Virus record (IMG/VR): IMGVR_UViG_3300037357_000073
Span: 1 to 20,289 of that record
Reading direction: 5' to 3' (one strand)
DNA: 20,289 nucleotides
Source: a virus
Shown here: positions 329 through 12,584 of the stretch, one piece after another
Numbering within the stretch: the stretch's first letter is position 1
How the letters are laid out: every line of letters starts with the position of its first letter
Position numbers and translations under genes: made by a program
Notes under the pieces: model-generated
What the model was told of the DNA's origin: nothing
Databases searched by the model: none
What the model saw: the letters and a program-made list of their open reading frames with translations, nothing else

Positions 329-832
329 TTATTCGGCGTTGCCACCGACCACGGCATTGCCACGGACACGGGCACTGCCACAGACCAAGGCATTGCCATA
401 GATACAGGCGGTGCCATAGATACAGGCCTTGTCATAGACCAAGGCCTTGTCACAGACCAAGGCCCAGTTACGGACACGGGCACTGCCAAAGACACGGGCA
501 TCGCCACGGACCATGGCACGGCCACAGACCAAGGCATTGCCACCGACCACGGCCCAGTCATAGACACGGGCACTGCCACGGACACGGGCATTGCCACCGA
601 CCACGGCACTGCCACCGACCACGGCCCAGTCATAGACACGGGCACTGCCACAGACCACGGCGTTGCCACAGACCATGGCACGGCCACAGACCAAGGCATT
701 GCCACGGACACGGGCATCAGGGCCGATAGTTGCTGTATCTGATACGTTAGCCGTATCCGCTACCCATCCACCGCCGTTAGGATGGCGATGAGCAGAAACC
801 GGACCATTACCATCATCGAAATCGAAAGTCAT
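329..832 (-). CDS. Left-handed beta-helix (hexapeptide-repeat) protein, copy 1
   Basis: This 167-residue protein has an N-terminal cap (MTFDFDDGNGPVSAHRHPNG, then GGWVADTANVS) followed by about 20 six-residue repeats of the form V-x-G-x-A-x, such as VRGNAL, VCGRAM and VYDWAV. Val at position 1 and a small residue (Ala) at position 5 fit the hexapeptide rule for a left-handed parallel beta-helix. No acyltransferase-type catalytic His loop is seen, so a purely structural, binding or mimicry role is more likely than enzymatic transfer. Caps of the type HPNGGGWVADTA are known to me from phage and enterobacterial repeat proteins of unknown role. The ATG at 832 follows AAGAGGAAGAG. It is a paralogue of the gene at 3024-3620. 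Confidence 0.85.
   Translation of the reverse strand: MTFDFDDGNGPVSAHRHPNGGGWVADTANVSDTATIGPDARVRGNALVCGRAMVCGNAVVCGSARVYDWAVVGGSAVVGGNARVRGSARVYDWAVVGGNALVCGRAMVRGDARVFGSARVRNWALVCDKALVYDKACIYGTACIYGNALVCGSARVRGNAVVGGNAE
345..716. repeat. 18-bp coding tandem repeat, copy 1
   Basis: About 20 tandem units of 18 bases, each close to GCCACGGACCACGGCATT on the plus strand, encode the hexapeptide pairs of the beta-helix protein on the minus strand. Units have diverged at wobble positions and at the codon after Gly. Several other frames stay open because of the period. Confidence 0.85.
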
Positions 833-2141: not shown

Positions 2142-2747
2142 TTACACGCCTTCCTTCTGTTCTGGTTCTAATTCCAAGCCGCAACACCCGCATTGGGGCA
2201 ACCCCAAGTCTATCCACTTTTGCGTAGTCCGTACTTTATACCCACAACCAGGGCAAGTCAAGGCAATCATCCGTGTACCTTGCTTTTTGGGCCCGTCCGT
2301 CTTTTGACCCACCAGGGCACCGTGCGGATATGCCGGGAGGTCTTTGACGATTTCCGCCAACGTGCTGGTAAGTTCCGGGCCGGCGGTTGTTGCGGTCATC
2401 TTCCCCGTGAGGCCCAGGGCGATTGCCACGGTCTTAAATTCCTTGCCATGGCCTTGTTGCCCGCTGGCATGAACCAGTTCATGTATCACAATGGCCAACA
2501 CGTCGATAGGGTCGGCAATCTCCGGGTGGATGAAGATTTCCGTATGCTGATCCGCACTACATTCTGGAAACCAGCATTCCCCTATTCTATGTGTCCCTTT
2601 GCCCCTACGCCCGCCGCCAGGAAACCCTACGCTGATGCGTAGCTTTTCCGGCAGGGCGATCTTTTGAGGCTTGAACAACCTCGTATCGATTACGCCGATT
2701 GCCTGATTAAGCCAACTTTCGCGGACTTGTATACTGTTGTCTTCCAT
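2142..2747 (-). CDS. SprT-like zinc metalloprotease
   Basis: The 201-residue protein has the zincin motif HELVH at residues 89-93, with Glu90 as the catalytic base and His100 in the following QGHG as the likely third zinc ligand. A C-terminal zinc ribbon follows, with CPGC at 165-168 and CGCC at 186-189. HExxH plus a Cys4 ribbon is the SprT/Spartan domain layout. In cells Spartan cleaves DNA-protein crosslinks; phage members have no established substrate. The ATG at 2747 lies just downstream of a strong promoter (TTGCCT-17-TATGAT at 2757-2785), with only a modest ribosome binding site (AGGTGAAGC). It is followed by 1570-2136 with a five-base gap, so the two are likely co-expressed. Confidence 0.9.
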   Translation of the reverse strand: MEDNSIQVRESWLNQAIGVIDTRLFKPQKIALPEKLRISVGFPGGGRRGKGTHRIGECWFPECSADQHTEIFIHPEIADPIDVLAIVIHELVHASGQQGHGKEFKTVAIALGLTGKMTATTAGPELTSTLAEIVKDLPAYPHGALVGQKTDGPKKQGTRMIALTCPGCGYKVRTTQKWIDLGLPQCGCCGLELEPEQKEGV

Positions 2748-2756
2748 GCTTCACCT

Positions 2757-2793
2757 ATCATACCCCACGTCCACCGATAAGGCAAACGTGGGG
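2757..2793 (-). promoter_or_regulatory. Palindrome-threaded promoter for the SprT-like gene
   Basis: TTGCCT (2785-2780), 17-base spacer, TATGAT (2762-2757). Arms CCCCACGT (2763-2770) and ACGTGGGG (2786-2793) are a perfect inverted repeat unrelated in sequence to the AT-rich arms upstream but in the same position relative to the -35 and -10. Confidence 0.75.
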
Positions 2794-2862
2794 TTTTGGC
2801 AATCTTGTACCCGCCGGATCAATTACCAGGGCGATCTAGGGATACGCTGACTGCCTGAAAGC

Positions 2863-3009
2863 TCACTTGGACCGCTGTATGACTACGCCACGCCCTGTGG
2901 CATATTTGCCATCGTGGGCCTTCTGGGCCTTGTCATAACTTGTCCGGCCCTTGGATTGGCGACGATGCTGCTTTGCGTTCACTTGACCATTCGGGGAACC
3001 TTGATTCAT
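2863..3009 (-). CDS. Hypothetical small basic protein, 48 aa
   Basis: An ATG at 3009 sits immediately behind the standard leader TTAACCGGAGAAGAGACA-type sequence (here ending GACAATGAATC, so the in-frame start is the second ATG). The frame is open for 48 codons: MNQGSPNGQVNAKQHRRQSK and onward to VVIQRSK. It is rich in Lys, Arg, Gln and Asn, suggesting a basic, perhaps disordered nucleic-acid-binding peptide. It follows the beta-helix gene at 3024-3620 by 14 bases. No family is recognised. Support is from the leader and position rather than homology. Confidence 0.55.
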   Translation of the reverse strand: MNQGSPNGQVNAKQHRRQSKGRTSYDKAQKAHDGKYATGRGVVIQRSK

Positions 3010-3023
3010 TGTCTCTTCTCCGG

Positions 3024-3620
3024 TTAAAAGTATACTACACCATAGACACGGGCATTGCCACGGACACGGGCATTGCCATAGACACGGGCATTGCCACAGA
3101 CACGGGCATCGCCACAGACACGGGCATCGCCATAGACATAGGCATCGCCACAGACAATGGCACCATCACAGACAAGGGCATCGCCAAAGACAACGGCCCT
3201 ACCGTAGACAATGGCCTTGCCATAGACATAGGCCCTGCCACGGACAATGGAAAGGCCATAGACACGGGCATTGCCATAGACACGGGCATTGCCACAGACA
3301 CGGGCATCGCCATAGACACGGGCATCGCCACAGACAATGGCCCTACCGTAGACAATGGCCTTGCCATAGACACGGGCATCGCCATAGACAATGGAAAGGC
3401 CATAGACACAGGCATTGCCATAGACACGGGCATTGCCACAGACACGGGCATCGCCATAGACATAGGCCCTGCCACGGACACGGGCGTTGCCATAGACAAC
3501 GGCCACAGGACCAACATACACCGCTTTTGATACGTTAGCCGTATCTGCCACCCACCCCCCGCCATTTTGGTGCCTATGAGCCGGGACAGGCCCATTACCA
3601 TCGTTAAAATCGAATTTCAT
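3024..3620 (-). CDS. Left-handed beta-helix (hexapeptide-repeat) protein, copy 2
   Basis: This 198-residue paralogue of 329-832 has the same cap (MKFDFNDGNGPVPAHRHQNG, then GGWVADTANVS) and about 27 repeats, mostly V-[YRC]-G-[NDRK]-A-[RIY]. Repeats are more uniform than in copy 1, and several multi-repeat blocks recur (for example YGLSIV and VYGKAIVYGRA twice each), which suggests recent expansion by slippage or recombination. No catalytic acyltransferase His is seen. The ATG at 3620 follows AAGGAGAATGAATC, and the promoter at 3643-3671 is near consensus (TTGACA-17-TATCTT). The C-terminus (VYGVVYF) runs into the leader of the next gene. Confidence 0.85.
   Translation of the reverse strand: MKFDFNDGNGPVPAHRHQNGGGWVADTANVSKAVYVGPVAVVYGNARVRGRAYVYGDARVCGNARVYGNACVYGLSIVYGDARVYGKAIVYGRAIVCGDARVYGDARVCGNARVYGNARVYGLSIVRGRAYVYGKAIVYGRAVVFGDALVCDGAIVCGDAYVYGDARVCGDARVCGNARVYGNARVRGNARVYGVVYF
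3042..3520. repeat. 18-bp coding tandem repeat, copy 2
   Basis: About 27 units of 18 bases, close to GCCATAGACACGGGCATT on the plus strand, make up the beta-helix repeats of 3024-3620. Units are more uniform than at 345-716, and larger multi-unit blocks recur, for example around 3186-3250 and 3315-3400. Confidence 0.85.
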
Positions 3621-3698: not shown

Positions 3699-4003
3699 TC
3701 TTCGTCAAAACCCTTTAGGATGTTCCCCGACCGATCAAGATACCCTCGGCCGATGAGGGCGGTTGCGGCACGACCATAACTACCTTGCAAACTCCACACA
3801 AGGCCATTCTTGACAAGAACCGCGAACAAGATAAGCGTGTCAGCGGACGATAGTTCGCCTTGCTCATAAGCCATGATGTTTGCCACTTCGTCGTATGGTT
3901 TCGCTTTCGTCGTCCTGAGTCTTTCCAAGCGTTCCTCTTCACGCCGGTTCTCTTCTTTGTTCTGGGCACGTCTGATTGAACACGTTATTCCAACTGGTCC
4001 CAT
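3695..4003 (-). CDS. Small conserved phage protein, 102 aa
   Basis: The start is the ATG at 4003 because the standard leader with GGAGAAGAG lies directly before it. A longer frame from 4066 would translate the leader and overlap the upstream gene. The N-terminus is a charged helix (NKEENRREEERLERLR). The rest fits a pattern common in small phage proteins: an acidic MAYEQGEL stretch, a helix LILFAVLVKNGLVW, then LQGSYGRAATALIGRGYL. To my knowledge this family has no assigned function. Its stop TGA begins the TGATGCATAATTCC box of the promoter for the beta-helix gene downstream. Confidence 0.75.
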   Translation of the reverse strand: MGPVGITCSIRRAQNKEENRREEERLERLRTTKAKPYDEVANIMAYEQGELSSADTLILFAVLVKNGLVWSLQGSYGRAATALIGRGYLDRSGNILKGFDED

Positions 4004-4650: not shown

Positions 4651-5250
4651 TTATGCCGCTATTCGCAGCTTGCCGTTGCTCTTCACAACATTGTGCAATC
4701 GTCGCCACACAACCCACACGACCGCTTGTAGCTGGGACGGACGTAAGCCTAGTTGCTTCGCAACAGTGGCATACGAAACGGACAAGCGGTTGTACGCTCG
4801 CCTACCGATAGGTGGGACATCTTCCAAGCTAATACGCTTCCCATGGGCAATCGCCCAAACATGGCCATCGATACATACGCAAAGGGAACGCTCAGGCTGT
4901 ACAAGGTTATCGTAGAATGCCCGTACCTTGTTTCCTCGCAAGATGTTTGCTGGCATGTTTCCTGCAAGTATCAGCTTAGCCTTGCGGACATTTGCGTACC
5001 AGCGTACGCCCAAGCCATCTAATTCACGTCCTTGGATGATACGCTCGGCAACCTCCACGTTCCGTTCCCAACGTAAACCGGGAGATACTGCGGCAATGAT
5101 GCCGCAAGCGGAAGCGACGCTAAGCCTGTACGTCTTGGCCAAGCGTACGCCTTGCTTGTGTGCGATGGCGTACCATTCTACGCCTTGCTGTAGTTCACAA
5201 GCGGTTGCTTGTTCAAAGACGCTTCGGATGTTTTTCTCTCTTTGCAACAC
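4651..5250 (-). CDS. Conserved phage protein of SPxxxWxxN / IDxH type, 199 aa
   Basis: A GTG start at 5250 follows AACGGGAGATGTC, a good ribosome binding site. Conserved-looking motifs in order: WYAIAH (26-31), AAVSPGLRWERN (53-64), KVRAFY (108-113), IDGHVWAIA (127-135) and QAVVWVVWR (175-183). I recall this order from all-helical phage proteins, especially actinophages, which are usually left as hypothetical and are sometimes compared with helix-hairpin-helix or DNA-glycosylase folds. The invariant-looking Asp128 and His130 could be functional. A DNA-related role is plausible inference only. No clear promoter was found directly upstream. Confidence 0.8.
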   Translation of the reverse strand: MLQREKNIRSVFEQATACELQQGVEWYAIAHKQGVRLAKTYRLSVASACGIIAAVSPGLRWERNVEVAERIIQGRELDGLGVRWYANVRKAKLILAGNMPANILRGNKVRAFYDNLVQPERSLCVCIDGHVWAIAHGKRISLEDVPPIGRRAYNRLSVSYATVAKQLGLRPSQLQAVVWVVWRRLHNVVKSNGKLRIAA

Positions 5251-5710: not shown

Positions 5711-5728
5711 ATCGGATGGGGAAAGATT

Positions 5729-5883
5729 TTTGTAGCACGATATTTCGTACCATTTACTTTCTACTAATGTGTATGGGAAAAAAAAAGATAGAGATATATA
5801 GAAGAGGGTATATATGTGAGGCGAATATATGGTAAAGGACGAACATAGTTGGAACCTAATGGTCCGAAATATCGGACTACAAA
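5729..5883. repeat. Nested inverted-repeat element, copy 1 (155 bp)
   Basis: Ends at 5729-5751 (starting TTTGTAGCACGATATTTCG) and 5861-5883 (ending TATCGGACTACAAA) are inverted repeats matching at 20 of 23 positions. Inside, ATATATA (5794-5800) and TATATAT (5809-5815) form an inner hairpin with loop GAAGAGGG. The interior is AT-rich, with a run of nine A. A relative is at 7244-7383. Confidence 0.75.
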
Positions 5884-5884
5884 G

Positions 5885-5898
5885 GTCGTTGCAACGAC
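5885..5898. repeat. 14-bp perfect palindrome
   Basis: GTCGTTGCAACGAC directly follows element copy 1. It could be an operator half of the control region; no second copy was seen. Confidence 0.5.
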
Positions 5899-6001: not shown

Positions 6002-6132
6002 TGGACGTTAGACCTCGTGCCGCAAGGTCCGGTAATCCTTATTATGTTAAGCTCATCATACACTGATGATCGTAAGTGTTTGATGCTACTGAGGTTATGG
6101 TAGAAGGTAGGGCGGTCCTACCCTTGGCTTGC

Positions 6133-6162
6133 TTGGCACGGGACTCCCACGTACTATATAGT
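6133..6162 (+). promoter_or_regulatory. Rightward promoter candidate before the repeat field
   Basis: TTGGCA (6133-6138), 18-base spacer, TATAGT (6157-6162). A transcript from it would start near 6170 and run directly into the inverted-repeat field, whether as a leader or as a separate RNA. Confidence 0.4.
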
Positions 6163-6185
6163 CAAAACAACTTTATGCAAAATTT

Positions 6186-6597
6186 GAAACCCCACTTCAA
6201 AGGCCCCGATAGGCGGGCTTCAAACCACACTTCAAACCCGCGAGTGGGGCTTCCAAACCCCATAAGATTGGTTGAAGTGGGGCTTCGCGAGGTGTGTGGG
6301 GTTTGACGCATGGGGCTTGCCAGGTTGAAGTGGGGCTTGGTATATGGGGCTTCGACCGCCCCAAGCCCCACTACAAACCCCATAAAACAGTGTGAAGTGG
6401 GGCTTCCCCCTGGACCAAGCCCCACGCTTCAAGCCACACTTCAAACCCCGAGCCTCCTTTATCAAGCCCCATATGGTAGGTCGAAGCCCCACTATGGGTT
6501 TTGAAGTGTGGCTTCGACCCGCACTTCAAGCCACACTTCAAACCCTAATACGCGACTCCAAGCCCCATATGATGGGTTGGAGTGGGGTTTGAAGCAA
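6186..6597. repeat. Inverted-repeat field with AAGCCCC / GGGGCTT cores; candidate origin or structured RNA
   Basis: Six GGGGCTT cores (near 6246, 6279, 6312, 6333, 6347, 6399) and five AAGCCCC cores (near 6363, 6417, 6465, 6485, 6560) occur here, often extended to GAAGTGGGGCTTC or CCACACTTCAAACCC. Neighbouring copies in opposite orientation give strong stems, for example 6482-6494 with 6506-6518 (12 of 13 pairs) and GGGGCTT at 6347 with AAGCCCC at 6363. Two larger units beginning near 6251 and 6371 are offset by 120 bases. Open frames here are by-products of repetition. No gene is called between 5640 and 6671. Confidence 0.8.
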
Positions 6598-6621
6598 CCA
6601 GCGGGCTACTTGTTTATGTAG

Positions 6622-6650
6622 TGGACAAGCCCCAGATTGTATGGTACACT
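6622..6650 (+). promoter_or_regulatory. Rightward promoter for 6672-7235
   Basis: TGGACA (6622-6627), 17-base spacer, TACACT (6645-6650). The end of the spacer and the -10 read TGGTACACT, identical to the scaffold promoter at 15761-15789. Its location rules out the ATG at 6651 as the gene start. Confidence 0.7.
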
Positions 6651-6671: not shown

Positions 6672-7235
6672 ATGCCAGCACGATCAAAATATCCAGACAT
6701 GCCCGAGGATGCTATCCTGGCCGAATACGCGAACCCCGCCGTGCGGACCAAGGACATCGTCGCTCTCTACGGTATCACCTATGAGGCCCTGCGGGCTCTA
6801 GTGCATCGTCGGAACGTGGCACGCCGCCCTCATGGAAGACGGGCCGGCGGTCCTCCTGTTCCCCCTCGGGTTACCAGCGGTCCCCGGCCTGTGTATGGAG
6901 CCCCGGAGGTTGTGGTCCCTCTCTCCACGCCTCCTGATCGCAAGGTGTCCTGTATACGAACGACTGGTAGCCCCCCTTCCGCCTGGCACCAGCGTAATGC
7001 CGAAGAGGCCATTAAGGCCCGAGAGAAACAAGCGGAGGAAACTCCCAAACCGCCCAAAGGTGCCCGCTGGGGTGACCCCGTTCCCCATGTCGTTGACTAC
7101 CCGACCTGTGCGTGGAACGCGGATGGGACACCCAGGGAGTTGACGAAGGATCAGAAGTACGACTGGGACTTCAGCCAAAATCAGAAGGCTGAGGAGCGTG
7201 CGGCGGGGATCGTTCCTGACGTGCATGTGCATTGA
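6672..7235 (+). CDS. Putative HTH-type DNA-binding protein, 187 aa
   Basis: The preferred start is the ATG at 6672 (MPARSKYPDMPEDAILAEYA), with AAGAGGA nine bases upstream. The ATG at 6651 abuts the -10 box of the promoter at 6622-6650 and would lie outside the transcript. Residues 10-45 read as a homeodomain-like helix-turn-helix: a first helix around AILAEYA, then TKDIVALYGITYEALRALVH followed by an Arg-rich patch. The middle is Pro-rich and probably flexible, and the C-terminal part has WGDPVPHVVDYPTCAW. It is the first gene after the repeat field at 6186-6597 and could bind it, as regulator, replication initiator or small-terminase-like protein. All three are inference. Confidence 0.7.
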   Translation: MPARSKYPDMPEDAILAEYANPAVRTKDIVALYGITYEALRALVHRRNVARRPHGRRAGGPPVPPRVTSGPRPVYGAPEVVVPLSTPPDRKVSCIRTTGSPPSAWHQRNAEEAIKAREKQAEETPKPPKGARWGDPVPHVVDYPTCAWNADGTPRELTKDQKYDWDFSQNQKAEERAAGIVPDVHVH

Positions 7236-7243
7236 GCGAGATT

Positions 7244-7383
7244 TTTGTAGCACGATAATTCGTACCCATTTACTTTCTACTCTCTCTGTGTGAAAAAGAA
7301 GTAATACATATGGTATAGGGGAGTATGTATTATAGTAGCCGGGAACTCTTGGAACAAATGGGTTGTTAATATCGTACTACAAA
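7244..7383. repeat. Nested inverted-repeat element, copy 2 (140 bp)
   Basis: The left end shares about 40 bases with copy 1 (GATTTTTGTAGCACGATA through ATTTACTTTCTACT) apart from one substitution and one indel. The right end is AATATCGTACTACAAAGGT. Terminal arms pair well over the outer 14 bases. The inner hairpin has different but complementary arms, TAATACATA (7302-7310) and TATGTATTA (7324-7332). It starts nine bases after the stop of 6672-7235. Confidence 0.75.
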
Positions 7384-7394
7384 GGTTTACCCAC

Positions 7395-9409: not shown

Positions 9410-9856
9410 ATGGCTTCACAAGGAATGAAAAAAGGGGAAACCGTCAGGTTGGCCCTCGATACGACGGACACCTATACGGCGAACCAGGCAGTGGGCGTCT
9501 ACGACTCCAACGGAAACGTCCGGCCTATTCAGTCCTGGGAGCGGCTGGTCATCGACTCGATCAACTGTGATGTCGATGCGTCGGCGTCCCGTGTTGCTCT
9601 TCTGGACCCCGGATCGGCAACGGCCACAACCAGCGGACAGTTGCTAGCCAGTTTCGCCTTCGATGGCGTCGGTGAGTCCCACGTTGACGACGAAGGGATC
9701 AACGTCAGTGTTGGTACTACGCCCACGTTGCAGGCCCAGGCTGCCGGCGGCGTACACTTCATCGCCAATGCCCGTGTGGTCAACGGCAAGAGCCAGGGGG
9801 TTCGGGCCGGGTACAAAGAGCTTTTAACTCCTGGCGGGAACAACACTGGACAATAA
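9410..9856 (+). CDS. Hypothetical beta-rich protein, 148 aa, likely structural
   Basis: ATG at 9410 behind AAAGGAAACTCCC. The protein begins MASQGMKKGETVRLALDTTD and is rich in Val, Thr, Gly and Asp with predicted beta alternation (VRPIQSWERLVIDSINCDVD). No signal peptide, membrane segment or catalytic motif is seen. Short beta proteins in this position are often head decoration or fibre components, which I offer as inference from position. It is the third of a tight three-gene group. Confidence 0.7.
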   Translation: MASQGMKKGETVRLALDTTDTYTANQAVGVYDSNGNVRPIQSWERLVIDSINCDVDASASRVALLDPGSATATTSGQLLASFAFDGVGESHVDDEGINVSVGTTPTLQAQAAGGVHFIANARVVNGKSQGVRAGYKELLTPGGNNTGQ

Positions 9857-9860
9857 GGTT

Positions 9861-10298
9861 ATGTCGTTTTTAGGAAAGGGAATGCCCTACAAAGACCTGC
9901 AAAGTCCCGCTGCCCGTGCCAGTCGGAAACGACGCAGCCGGAAGTATTACGAGACGCATCGAGAGATGTTGATCGAAAAATCCGCCGGATACACGGCGGC
10001 TAACTTGACTAAGATTGCCTTACGCAGGGCTAAGCACCGGGTTAAAAAATATGGCCTCACGCCCGAGGATGTAGAGCGTATGTTCGTTGAGCAGGGTGGC
10101 CGCTGTGCTGTAAACTCGGCACATGAAATATCCATGGTGTTCGGTTCGCCTTCGATCAGGCATATCGACCACGACCACAAGACTGGGAGGGTCCGTGGGC
10201 TGGTGTGCGGGCGGTGTAACGTGATGTTGGGAATGGGGAACGACGACCCCGAAACCTTACGCCTTGGGGCGGAATACCTGGAGCGACATGGCCAGTAA
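9861..10298 (+). CDS. Endonuclease VII-like HNH nuclease
   Basis: The 145-residue frame has a basic Arg/Lys/Tyr arm (SRKRRSRKYYETHREML), then GLTPEDVERMFVEQGGRC (66-82), the metal-binding core HIDHDHKTGRVRGLVCGRCN (101-120) and a C-terminal helix. This matches the recombination endonuclease VII family (T4 gp49-like, ββα-metal), which cleaves branched DNA or acts as a homing-type nuclease. The first zinc knuckle, normally CxxC, here reads CAVN, so one Cys is missing; Cys116 and Cys119 are kept. The start may instead be the ATG at 9882, which has AGGAAAGGG just before it, while the ATG at 9861 has a weak site. It sits beside terminase genes, where HNH nucleases often occur. Confidence 0.88.
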   Translation: MSFLGKGMPYKDLQSPAARASRKRRSRKYYETHREMLIEKSAGYTAANLTKIALRRAKHRVKKYGLTPEDVERMFVEQGGRCAVNSAHEISMVFGSPSIRHIDHDHKTGRVRGLVCGRCNVMLGMGNDDPETLRLGAEYLERHGQ

Positions 10299-10653
10299 AC
10301 CTCCCACACGCCCACCCCCGCCTGTACGTCCGGTGAAGCTGAAGGCCGATACTCTACGCGAGATCGGCCTGGAGGCTCATTCCGTTGATGAACAGGGCCG
10401 GTCAATCACCAACCAGGAGGCCCTGTATCGACAAATGTGGAAGCAGGCGTTAGGTTGGACCGACCTTGTGCGGGACGAATGCGGCTATGCCCGCAAGGTT
10501 GTTCACGAGCCGAACCTGACAATCAGCAAGTCTCTGCTGGAGCAGTTGGCCGGCAAACCCGGTACGGCACAAGTCGAAGAGAAGAAGGGACCCTCGGCCG
10601 CTGAACGGGTCCGGGCCTTGGCAGTCGAACGTGTAAACGCCATCAAGACATGA
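10288..10653 (+). CDS. Possible small terminase subunit, 121 aa
   Basis: The start is the ATG at 10288 (MASKPPTRPPPPVRPVKLKA), with GGAG six bases upstream. It overlaps the end of the nuclease gene by 11 bases, and a longer version from 10264 lacks better support. After a Pro-rich tail come two predicted helical regions (NQEALYRQMWKQALGWTDLV, and SKSLLEQLAGKP), and the C-terminus is basic and helical (AAERVRALAVERVNAI). The stop overlaps the terminase start by four bases. Small terminase is suggested by position alone; no clear HTH is visible, so it may be another terminase-adjacent protein. Confidence 0.6.
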   Translation: MASKPPTRPPPPVRPVKLKADTLREIGLEAHSVDEQGRSITNQEALYRQMWKQALGWTDLVRDECGYARKVVHEPNLTISKSLLEQLAGKPGTAQVEEKKGPSAAERVRALAVERVNAIKT

Positions 10654-12584
10654 ACTCTTTTGCCTCACAGCCTGATATCAAAGAGCCGGTCCTGGCAGAG
10701 TCCTGGACCTGCCCGATCACGGGTATGCGGGTTCCACTCGACCCAACAAAGAATCTCCTGTGGCGTGCGGACCTCCTGGAGATGGCGGAGACGGACCCGT
10801 TACTCCAGACTGATCTCTACACGGCCTGCTCTCAGTCCGCAGAGTTTTTCGTTTTGGCCTTCTGCTTTACGCTCCGGGTCTTCAATGTAGGTGTCAACGG
10901 TATCTTACAACAGGCCGAAGAGAAGCACGTCCCATTCTGCCTGTGGCCGGAGCAGGCAAAGCTGTTTGAACGGCTGGTGCAGTGCATCGAAGACGGCGAG
11001 GAGAATCTGACTGATAAGTCCCGAGACATGGGAGCCACCTGGCTGCACATTGCGGCCGCGACCTGGGCTTTCCTGTTCAAGCCGCACACGTCTGGCCTGT
11101 TCATCAGTCGTAAGGAAGACGTGATCGATCAGCTTGATGGCATGGTCAACAACTATCCGAACGGCCGGCTCGCGGACCCTGGTACTCTGTTCGGCAAGAT
11201 CGACTACATACTTAACCGGTTGCCGGCCTGGTTTCTTCCACTTATGGGCCGGAAGAAACTACATCTTGTGAATCACAGCAACGGCTCGCGTATCGATGGC
11301 GAGTCGAGCAACGCAGCGGCAGGTAGCTCTGACCGTCGCGATTATATTTTCCTGGATGAAGTCGCCAAGATTCCCGAAGCGGAGTCCATCATCCAATCCA
11401 CAAAGGCGGTGACAGCATGCCGGCTATTCTGTTCAACCCCACTCGGTTCAGGTACAGCCTTCAGCAAGTTACGCCTGAGCGGTATGGTGCCGGTGTCGGA
11501 ACTGATGTGGTGGGCGTCACCCGAGAAGGCCAAGGGCCTATACGCGGCCCAGGATGCCCTGGGACGATGGAAGATGCGATCCCCATGGTACGATGCACAG
11601 TGCCGGGCGTCCTCCCCGAAAGAGGTCGCTACTGAAATCGATGCCGACCACCTAGGCAGCGGGGAGCGGTTCTTTGAGGATGCGATCATACTGGAGCACC
11701 AGAAGCTGCTGGCTCGGCCCCCTCGGGTTCGGAAGACGATTGCGTTCAAGAGAACGCTAACGGATGAATTGGTGGTGAGGGCCCTGCGATCCTCCGACAG
11801 CACTACATTAAGTTACACCAGCACGGATGGGCCGTGGAAAATCTGGTGCCCTCTCGTCAGCGGTCGCCCCGAGCAATCGAAGACCTACACGGTCGCGGCC
11901 GATATCAGCAAGGGACAGGGGGCGTCAAACAGCGTGTGCGTGATTGGCTGCAACGAAACCCACGAGAAGGTCGCTGAATATGCAGATGCGAATACACCGC
12001 CGTATGAGTTCGCGAAGATCGTCGCCGCTGCTGCCCTATGGGCCGGGGGACGTGACAAGAGGCCAATGGTCATTTGGGAAAATAACGGTGACCCTGGTAT
12101 CGACTTTCAGCGGGTGCTGGTACATACTCTTAGGTACCCAAACCTTTATTTTGATCGTCAACCAGGAACACTACGCCAGAGAATCGGAAAGAGGTATGGA
12201 TGGCGAAGCAACACGGATAAGAAGGCGGAAGCGTTGGGTGTACTTCGTCGAGCATACGCAACGGGTAAGATCATTGATCGCTCGTCCCAGTCGCTTACGG
12301 AGTGCCTGTCTTATATCCATTATGACGGTGGTGGCATTGGTCCGGCAGCTTTGGTCAGTGAGCCGGACGCCGCCCGCAAGGCCCACGGTGACCGAGTCAT
12401 CGCAACTATGTTGCTGACCTGGGTGTGGGGGAACTCCGGCGGCACAGTACGCCCTGAGAAGTCCACGACTCCCGAGAGATGCTTCGGCCATCGCCTAGAG
12501 CAATGGCGAAAGACCCGCAAAGAGAACAAGGATGGTCTACCACGGATCGGGCAAGTTCTGCATATGGATGGGAGCTATGTATGA
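10650..12584 (+). CDS. terL: Terminase large subunit (packaging ATPase and nuclease)
   Basis: This 644-residue protein drives genome packaging into the prohead. The ATPase domain shows a divergent Walker A-like segment KSRDMGATW starting near residue 122, Walker B IFLDEV near 233-238, and a coupling segment FCSTPLGSG. The RNase H-like nuclease domain starts with AADISKGQGAS (Asp418), continues with VIWENNGDPG (Glu477) and ends with HGDRVIA (Asp581), giving the expected acidic triad. Length is slightly above the common 450-600 because of an N-terminal extension. The start overlaps the previous stop (ATGA), and its own stop overlaps the portal start in the same way, so the three genes are coupled. 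Confidence 0.93.
   Translation: MNSFASQPDIKEPVLAESWTCPITGMRVPLDPTKNLLWRADLLEMAETDPLLQTDLYTACSQSAEFFVLAFCFTLRVFNVGVNGILQQAEEKHVPFCLWPEQAKLFERLVQCIEDGEENLTDKSRDMGATWLHIAAATWAFLFKPHTSGLFISRKEDVIDQLDGMVNNYPNGRLADPGTLFGKIDYILNRLPAWFLPLMGRKKLHLVNHSNGSRIDGESSNAAAGSSDRRDYIFLDEVAKIPEAESIIQSTKAVTACRLFCSTPLGSGTAFSKLRLSGMVPVSELMWWASPEKAKGLYAAQDALGRWKMRSPWYDAQCRASSPKEVATEIDADHLGSGERFFEDAIILEHQKLLARPPRVRKTIAFKRTLTDELVVRALRSSDSTTLSYTSTDGPWKIWCPLVSGRPEQSKTYTVAADISKGQGASNSVCVIGCNETHEKVAEYADANTPPYEFAKIVAAAALWAGGRDKRPMVIWENNGDPGIDFQRVLVHTLRYPNLYFDRQPGTLRQRIGKRYGWRSNTDKKAEALGVLRRAYATGKIIDRSSQSLTECLSYIHYDGGGIGPAALVSEPDAARKAHGDRVIATMLLTWVWGNSGGTVRPEKSTTPERCFGHRLEQWRKTRKENKDGLPRIGQVLHMDGSYV

Follow-up and report, generated by a model that had tools for sequence, protein, structure and literature searches.

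A dense two-orientation array of short DNA words beside a helix-turn-helix gene in the control region of a tailed phage

The window analysed here is an entire IMG/VR record of 20,289 bases from a tailed phage, which encodes a terminase large subunit (at 10650) and a portal protein (at 12575). Between its divergent gene blocks lies a control region packed with copies of one short DNA word, followed by a gene for a helix-turn-helix (HTH) protein (Table 1). The sequence-only reading of this DNA had reported at least eleven exact AAGCCCC/GGGGCTT cores in both orientations; we counted 11 within 6186-6597 and found a twelfth copy at 6627-6634. The density described earlier thus stands, but the limits of 6186-6597 do not, since the array spans 6187-6634 and its last word falls within the sequence that resembles a promoter for the HTH gene. 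The 8-mer AAGCCCCA matches the window 13 times, 12 of them at 6245-6634, against 0.90 expected in the whole window and a largest count of 4 in 100 dinucleotide shuffles; the degenerate form AARCCMCAY has 22 matches (20 at 6187-6590), against 1.6 expected and a largest shuffle count of 5. The exact words run in the order -----+-+++++, the left half mainly one way and the right half the other, which is more two-sided than random (p ~0.004). The longer repeat unit of the field approximates ACTTCAARCCMCA, and the words keep no helical phase, with spacings of 8-9, 12, 14, 20, 24 bp and more.

Beyond the field the words occur at chance level only, and no second cluster was found elsewhere in the records tested. 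A mobile dispersed repeat, which the earlier reading had named as evidence that would count against it, is therefore not supported by the phage records covered here: in these, the words are confined to the field. The field DNA has no match in the annotated phage collection, in which all terminase matches stay below 60% identity. When compared with viral contigs, a 14-base piece of the window unit gave one match per contig among the matches listed, which is uninformative.

Table 1 Features of the control region in the window and of strong fields in related records.
Feature	Position or record	Strand	Details
AT-richest window stretch	5740-5815		purine run and TATATA; part of the ~150-nt repeated element
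~150-nt element	window 5724-5886, 7239-7386; L012 ~2290-2440, 3867-3995; L011 207-356		
Conserved non-coding block	6057-6181		adjoins the field; also in L012, L139, L187
Leftward promoter-like sequence	6153-6181	-	TTTGCA-17-TATAGT; first word begins 6 bp from the -35
Word field	6187-6634	both	21 copies of AARCCMCA, 12 of them exact AAGCCCCA
Field, left half	6245-6405	-	exact words at 6245, 6278, 6311, 6331, 6345, 6398
Field, right half	6363-6634	+	exact words at 6363, 6417, 6464, 6484, 6560, 6627
Rightward promoter-like sequence, HTH gene	6622-6650	+	TGGACA-17-TACACT, extended -10; contains the word at 6627-6634
HTH protein gene, 187 residues	6672-7235	+	HTH at about residues 10-52; exchangeable C-terminal half
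Strong field, word TGTAAAGG	L139, L200, L212, L256	both	strand-switch word scan
Strong field, word TGTAAAA	L140	both	strand-switch word scan
Strong field, word CTAATTCAAC	L187	both	strand-switch word scan
Strong field, word AACGTCACAT	L249	both	strand-switch word scan
Strong field, word TGTGAACCGATAGGCA	L241	both	strand-switch word scan

Several other elements of the window were recorded alongside the field. The ~150-nt element is bounded by long inverted repeats, contains a purine run and a TATA tract, and occurs twice in each of the window, L008 and L012; its consensus fold has 26 pairs, 5 of them changed on both sides, with an unfavourable covariation term, and it has no Rfam match. Two highly repetitive proteins are encoded at 329-832 (-) and 3024-3620 (-), the second of which matches YdcK beta-solenoid repeats. 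A DUF7178 protein (phrog_3842; 4651-5250, -) lies beside the control region; in L241 and L245, genes that look like its homologues are found next to the field. A stand-alone endonuclease VII gene at 9861-10298 is missing from the near-identical L006, L009 and L010, where the alignment skips 9807-10315; on this comparison it is a recent gain or loss.

The protein encoded just downstream of the field has its HTH at the N-terminus. When a profile of the HTH halves was compared with the PDB, the DNA-binding domains of Hin (E 0.013) and of the IS5376 transposase (E 0.003) appeared amid unrelated weak matches. An AlphaFold model of the HTH has three helices at a mean pLDDT of 73, and Foldseek searches with it returned insignificant matches only, many of them HTH domains. 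HTH-X genes lie near the field in the window, L012, L139, L187 and L241, while no HTH gene adjoins the fields of L140, L200/L256, L212 and L249. The first rightward gene combines the HTH with a long uncharacterised part in L187, for whose protein the viral collection yielded no second relative, and with endonuclease VII in L139 (893-1456) and L227 (6914-7369), in both cases upstream of the terminase; in L213 a gene likewise upstream of the terminase (180-899) encodes two HTH motifs and endonuclease VII.

Both ends of the array are marked by promoter-like sequences, by which we mean sigma-70-like consensus matches only. The L012 counterpart of the window arrangement, TTGCTA-17-TATAGT at 3196-3224, carries its own unrelated word in the spacer, and the rightward promoter-like sequence of L200, L201 and L256, TTGCTA/TTGCCA-17-TACACT, has a word directly against its -35. 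On the left, the outward promoter-like sequences of the window, L012, L200, L201 and L256 start 4-6 bp from the first word, the matches in L012 and L256 being weak. Two further records fit the pattern in part: an ATTCAAC copy in L187 ends just before the -35, and a word in L139 lies inside TTGACA-17-TATATT on the left side. A tight relation of end word and promoter was not seen in L249, L212 and L241. The promoter proposed earlier at 6133-6162 (TTGGCA-18-TATAGT) scores 10/12 in our scan, but the same scan misses it in the homologous L012 block. Promoters for a single-subunit RNA polymerase, considered for the TATAGRRGAG-like tracts beside the array, were set aside: 16 relatives gave no PF00940 match, which is a weak negative because the control genomes gave none either.

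That the end words lie at outward promoter-like sequences or inside them, in several lineages whose words are unrelated, supports the main rival to the reading we prefer. In this rival account, a phage repressor or activator would use the words as operators to silence or switch the early and late promoters on either side, setting superinfection immunity in temperate members, and replication would start elsewhere. Integrases in some relatives would fit, as would heteroimmune phages, which show such an exchange of site and reader as a cassette between close relatives; lineage-specific asymmetric sites read by a monomeric HTH repressor also have precedent (PMC6550527, PMC9283540). Against this stand the 10-20 sites in one region, which are many for a promoter switch and come with no second cluster in the records, and the endonuclease VII domain on several of the HTH proteins, which would be odd for a repressor. 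No integrase was seen in the window, itself a fragment. We regard a purely regulatory array as a possible but less likely account.

The near-copies L008 and L010 and the relative L012 were found by searching with the HTH protein and the terminase. The L012 terminase is 93% identical to that of the window, and the two records can be aligned up to window position 6181 and again from 7047. Between these parts L012 has no AAGCCCC field but an equally dense TGGTTGCATC array in both orientations (~20 copies at 2719-3216), which also lies upstream of the homologous HTH gene. In the window, L012 and L187 the conserved block at 6057-6181 comes ahead of the main cluster of words, and in L139 it follows that cluster. 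Within the HTH gene, the record L006 combines the field and HTH half of the window with another C-terminus, and L012 combines the C-terminus of the window with another HTH half and another word; alignment of L006 525-1052 with window 6672-7235 places a crossover at about window position 6977. Judged by these alignments, the word array and the HTH domain of the window genus are exchanged like a single cassette, and it is from this one genus that the cassette argument for a pairing of HTH and word is drawn.

The same comparison bears on a partition (centromere-like) or packaging site, the latter of which the sequence-only reading had also offered. A single dense array of short sites with a small DNA-binding protein would fit such a role, but the window and L012 share ~90% identity across the terminase-gene region and have entirely different words, which disfavours packaging, and no ParA/ParB-type protein was identified among the proteins covered by a general scan. 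We consider either function very unlikely.

More distant relatives were collected by terminase searches, which defined a clade of ~80 records, most at ~43-60% identity; one of its contigs belongs to a Planctomycetia genome bin, and a literature search did not find the group described. Among terminase relatives of ~51-60% identity, strong fields built from other words (Table 1) sit at the early/late strand switch or close to it. The strong-field regions, window and L012 included, reach -log10(E) values of 7-30, against a 99th percentile of 3.2 for 400 control pieces taken at random from the same loci; three of these controls reached 8 to 20 and, given where they were drawn, may be fields themselves. 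Each array of the clade is contained in one region of 300-800 bp and uses both orientations. The L241 field lies between two left-block genes and so not at the same gene pair. Fields were weak or absent in the strand-switch word scan of L188, L190, L192, L215, L224, L227 and L228, and the word scan of the near-complete records G002, G006 and G007 gave no strong field. We disregarded a cluster of words found in G010/L227 at 9 kb upstream of the terminase, since it resembles a coding repeat. Dense two-orientation clusters away from the control region were also observed in G014 (12456-12546, TCCTCGA x8) and G016 (45352-45743, AATCCGCC x6).

Mapped onto the terminase tree, the distribution of the shared word TGTAAAGG requires three changes, so word and backbone do not have a simple common history. 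Of the columns compared between L200 and L256, 5 of the 63 that belong to words differ, against 318 of the remaining 891; gaps were counted, and a word in any row defined a word column, so that lost words are scored as differences. By this count the words are better conserved than the spacers. Such constraint on words while spacers drift, together with the recurrence of unrelated words at the same position in several lineages and the fixed relation of end words to promoter-like sequences, argues against a functionless neutral or selfish expansion of short inverted repeats. Slippage and template switching can create repeat arrays, and some relatives lack an array, yet we hold this to be the least probable explanation of all.

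A structured leader or small RNA, or cruciform DNA, would make the inverted words stems and the word itself secondary. Predicted folding is indeed strong on both strands (z -9.2 and -7.7 against dinucleotide shuffles), and L249 (7290-7610) and L140 (4416-4531, 4721-4836) have field-wide inverted symmetry beyond their word content. For the window and L012 arrays, however, placing the word-bearing segments in random order gives folds at least as strong, L200 and L256 keep the word itself with no paired changes on both stem sides, and there is no Rfam match. Fields spelt with different words do not align with one another. The promoter-like sequences at the ends point outward, and promoters so placed would leave most of the array untranscribed. 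With the two strands folding about equally, the folded leader RNA suggested earlier is not favoured, and we judge a structural role for the words highly improbable. The quadruplexes once proposed for the GGGG runs were likewise dropped, since neither strand contains a motif with loops of up to 12 nt.

The fusions of HTH and endonuclease VII in L139, L227 and L213 raise a different possibility, in which the HTH steers a nuclease to the word arrays of rivals and a phage's own array is a remnant or decoy. Precedent exists in Odn of ICP1, where the DNA-binding domain of a nuclease reads the iterons of a rival (PMC8263062). Pfam, however, detects no nuclease domain in the window, L012 and L187 proteins, and the fields of L227 and L213 are weak or undetected, which makes a nuclease target or self-protection system improbable as the explanation of the field. 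Slightly less improbable, though still unlikely, is a broader scheme of a conserved hub with a hypervariable word, in which array and HTH would be replaced as a unit, HTH-endonuclease VII proteins would attack the hubs of rival phages or satellites, and word turnover would reflect an arms race.

The reading we prefer, with a probability of roughly 0.45, is that the field is a recognition-site array for the phage HTH protein and forms an origin-like hub that would also regulate the flanking promoters, array and HTH changing together. That the words are read by a phage-encoded protein seems probable in itself. The asymmetric words of 8-10 bp would be recognition sites that a phage protein binds sequence-specifically, the HTH protein from 6672-7235 being the likeliest candidate. 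This protein would coat the ~450 bp that separate the diverging early and late promoters, and the resulting complex would most likely be an iteron-type replication origin beside an AT-rich stretch. Occupancy of the end words may repress or tune both outward promoters, that of the HTH gene included, and the array and HTH domain would be swapped as one specificity cassette. Such an exchange would explain why the words differ completely between related phages and their position, density and two-way layout persist. Binding of the words by the HTH protein, a replication start at the field and the direction of regulation are what we infer. Origin and operator roles are compatible, because initiators often repress their own promoter.

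Several observations bear on the origin component. In most loci the 60 bp with the highest AT content fall in the control region, but AT-richness is also seen in relatives without a field; in the window, the AT-richest stretch (Table 1) is a possible unwinding element. Near-complete relatives encode PolA and a primase-helicase of their own, which in G016 is of the D5/DUF5906 type. The cumulative GC-skew curves of G014 and G012 change direction close to the field, and that of G016 does so locally, as an origin at this place had been expected to show, but the turning points coincide with the switch in gene orientation, which confounds them, and the minimum of the window lies at 9.5 kb. Near-complete relatives in which no field was detected (G002, G006, G007) are awkward for an essential origin. 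An origin with initiator boxes beside the HTH gene, as first proposed from the letters of the window, is thus retained as the single best reading in view of the cassette, the AT-richest region and the skew turn; none of these is decisive, and the operator array is a close rival.

If correct, the field would be a testable control site for this phage group. The relatives form a natural series in which unrelated DNA words occupy one conserved position and several of these words have a small HTH domain encoded next to them; this series offers a test bed for the joint change of a DNA-binding specificity and a whole array of sites.

Among known systems, the iteron origins of lambda (O/ori), phage P4 and iteron plasmids resemble the field in having a replicon-specific site array, and multiple copies of one lineage-specific short site are present here as well. 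Their arrays lie near an AT-rich stretch, a likeness that is less clear-cut here, as AT-richness of the control region also occurs in relatives without a field. In these systems the site and the DNA-binding domain are expected to co-vary, as is proposed here for word and HTH. The field differs in that direct repeats in helical phase are replaced by unphased words in both orientations, within a divergent intergenic array beside a Hin-like HTH protein, and in that no field was detected in some relatives. Plasmid iterons bind monomers (PMC5043065).

The origin and repA alleles of PLE move as modules across backbones (PMC8263062, PMC7145576), and ICP1 Odn is a nuclease with a RepA-like DNA-binding domain aimed at PLE iterons (PMC8263062); the present clade is alike in joining a related DNA-binding domain to a nuclease. 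In contrast to the arrays described here, PLE1 has only three semi-palindromic iterons of ~30 bp, its RepA belongs to the RepA_N family, and the nuclease type differs; Pfam gave no RepA_N match for P0001, P0004 and the L187 protein, and only an unrelated weak match for P0003. Cluster A mycobacteriophages carry many asymmetric sites with a lineage-specific consensus, read by a monomeric HTH repressor (PMC6550527, PMC9283540). Sites at promoter-like positions and a distinct consensus in related phages are found here too, but Cluster A stoperators are dispersed over the genome mainly in one orientation, whereas each array of this clade uses both orientations within a single region. As neither system matches in all features, we do not class the array as a member of the PLE or the Cluster A type. 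The HTH itself matches in profile those of Hin-type resolvases and transposases (Hin, IS5376); in the present clade it comes without a recombinase or transposase domain and is instead fused to endonuclease VII or to uncharacterised C-termini.
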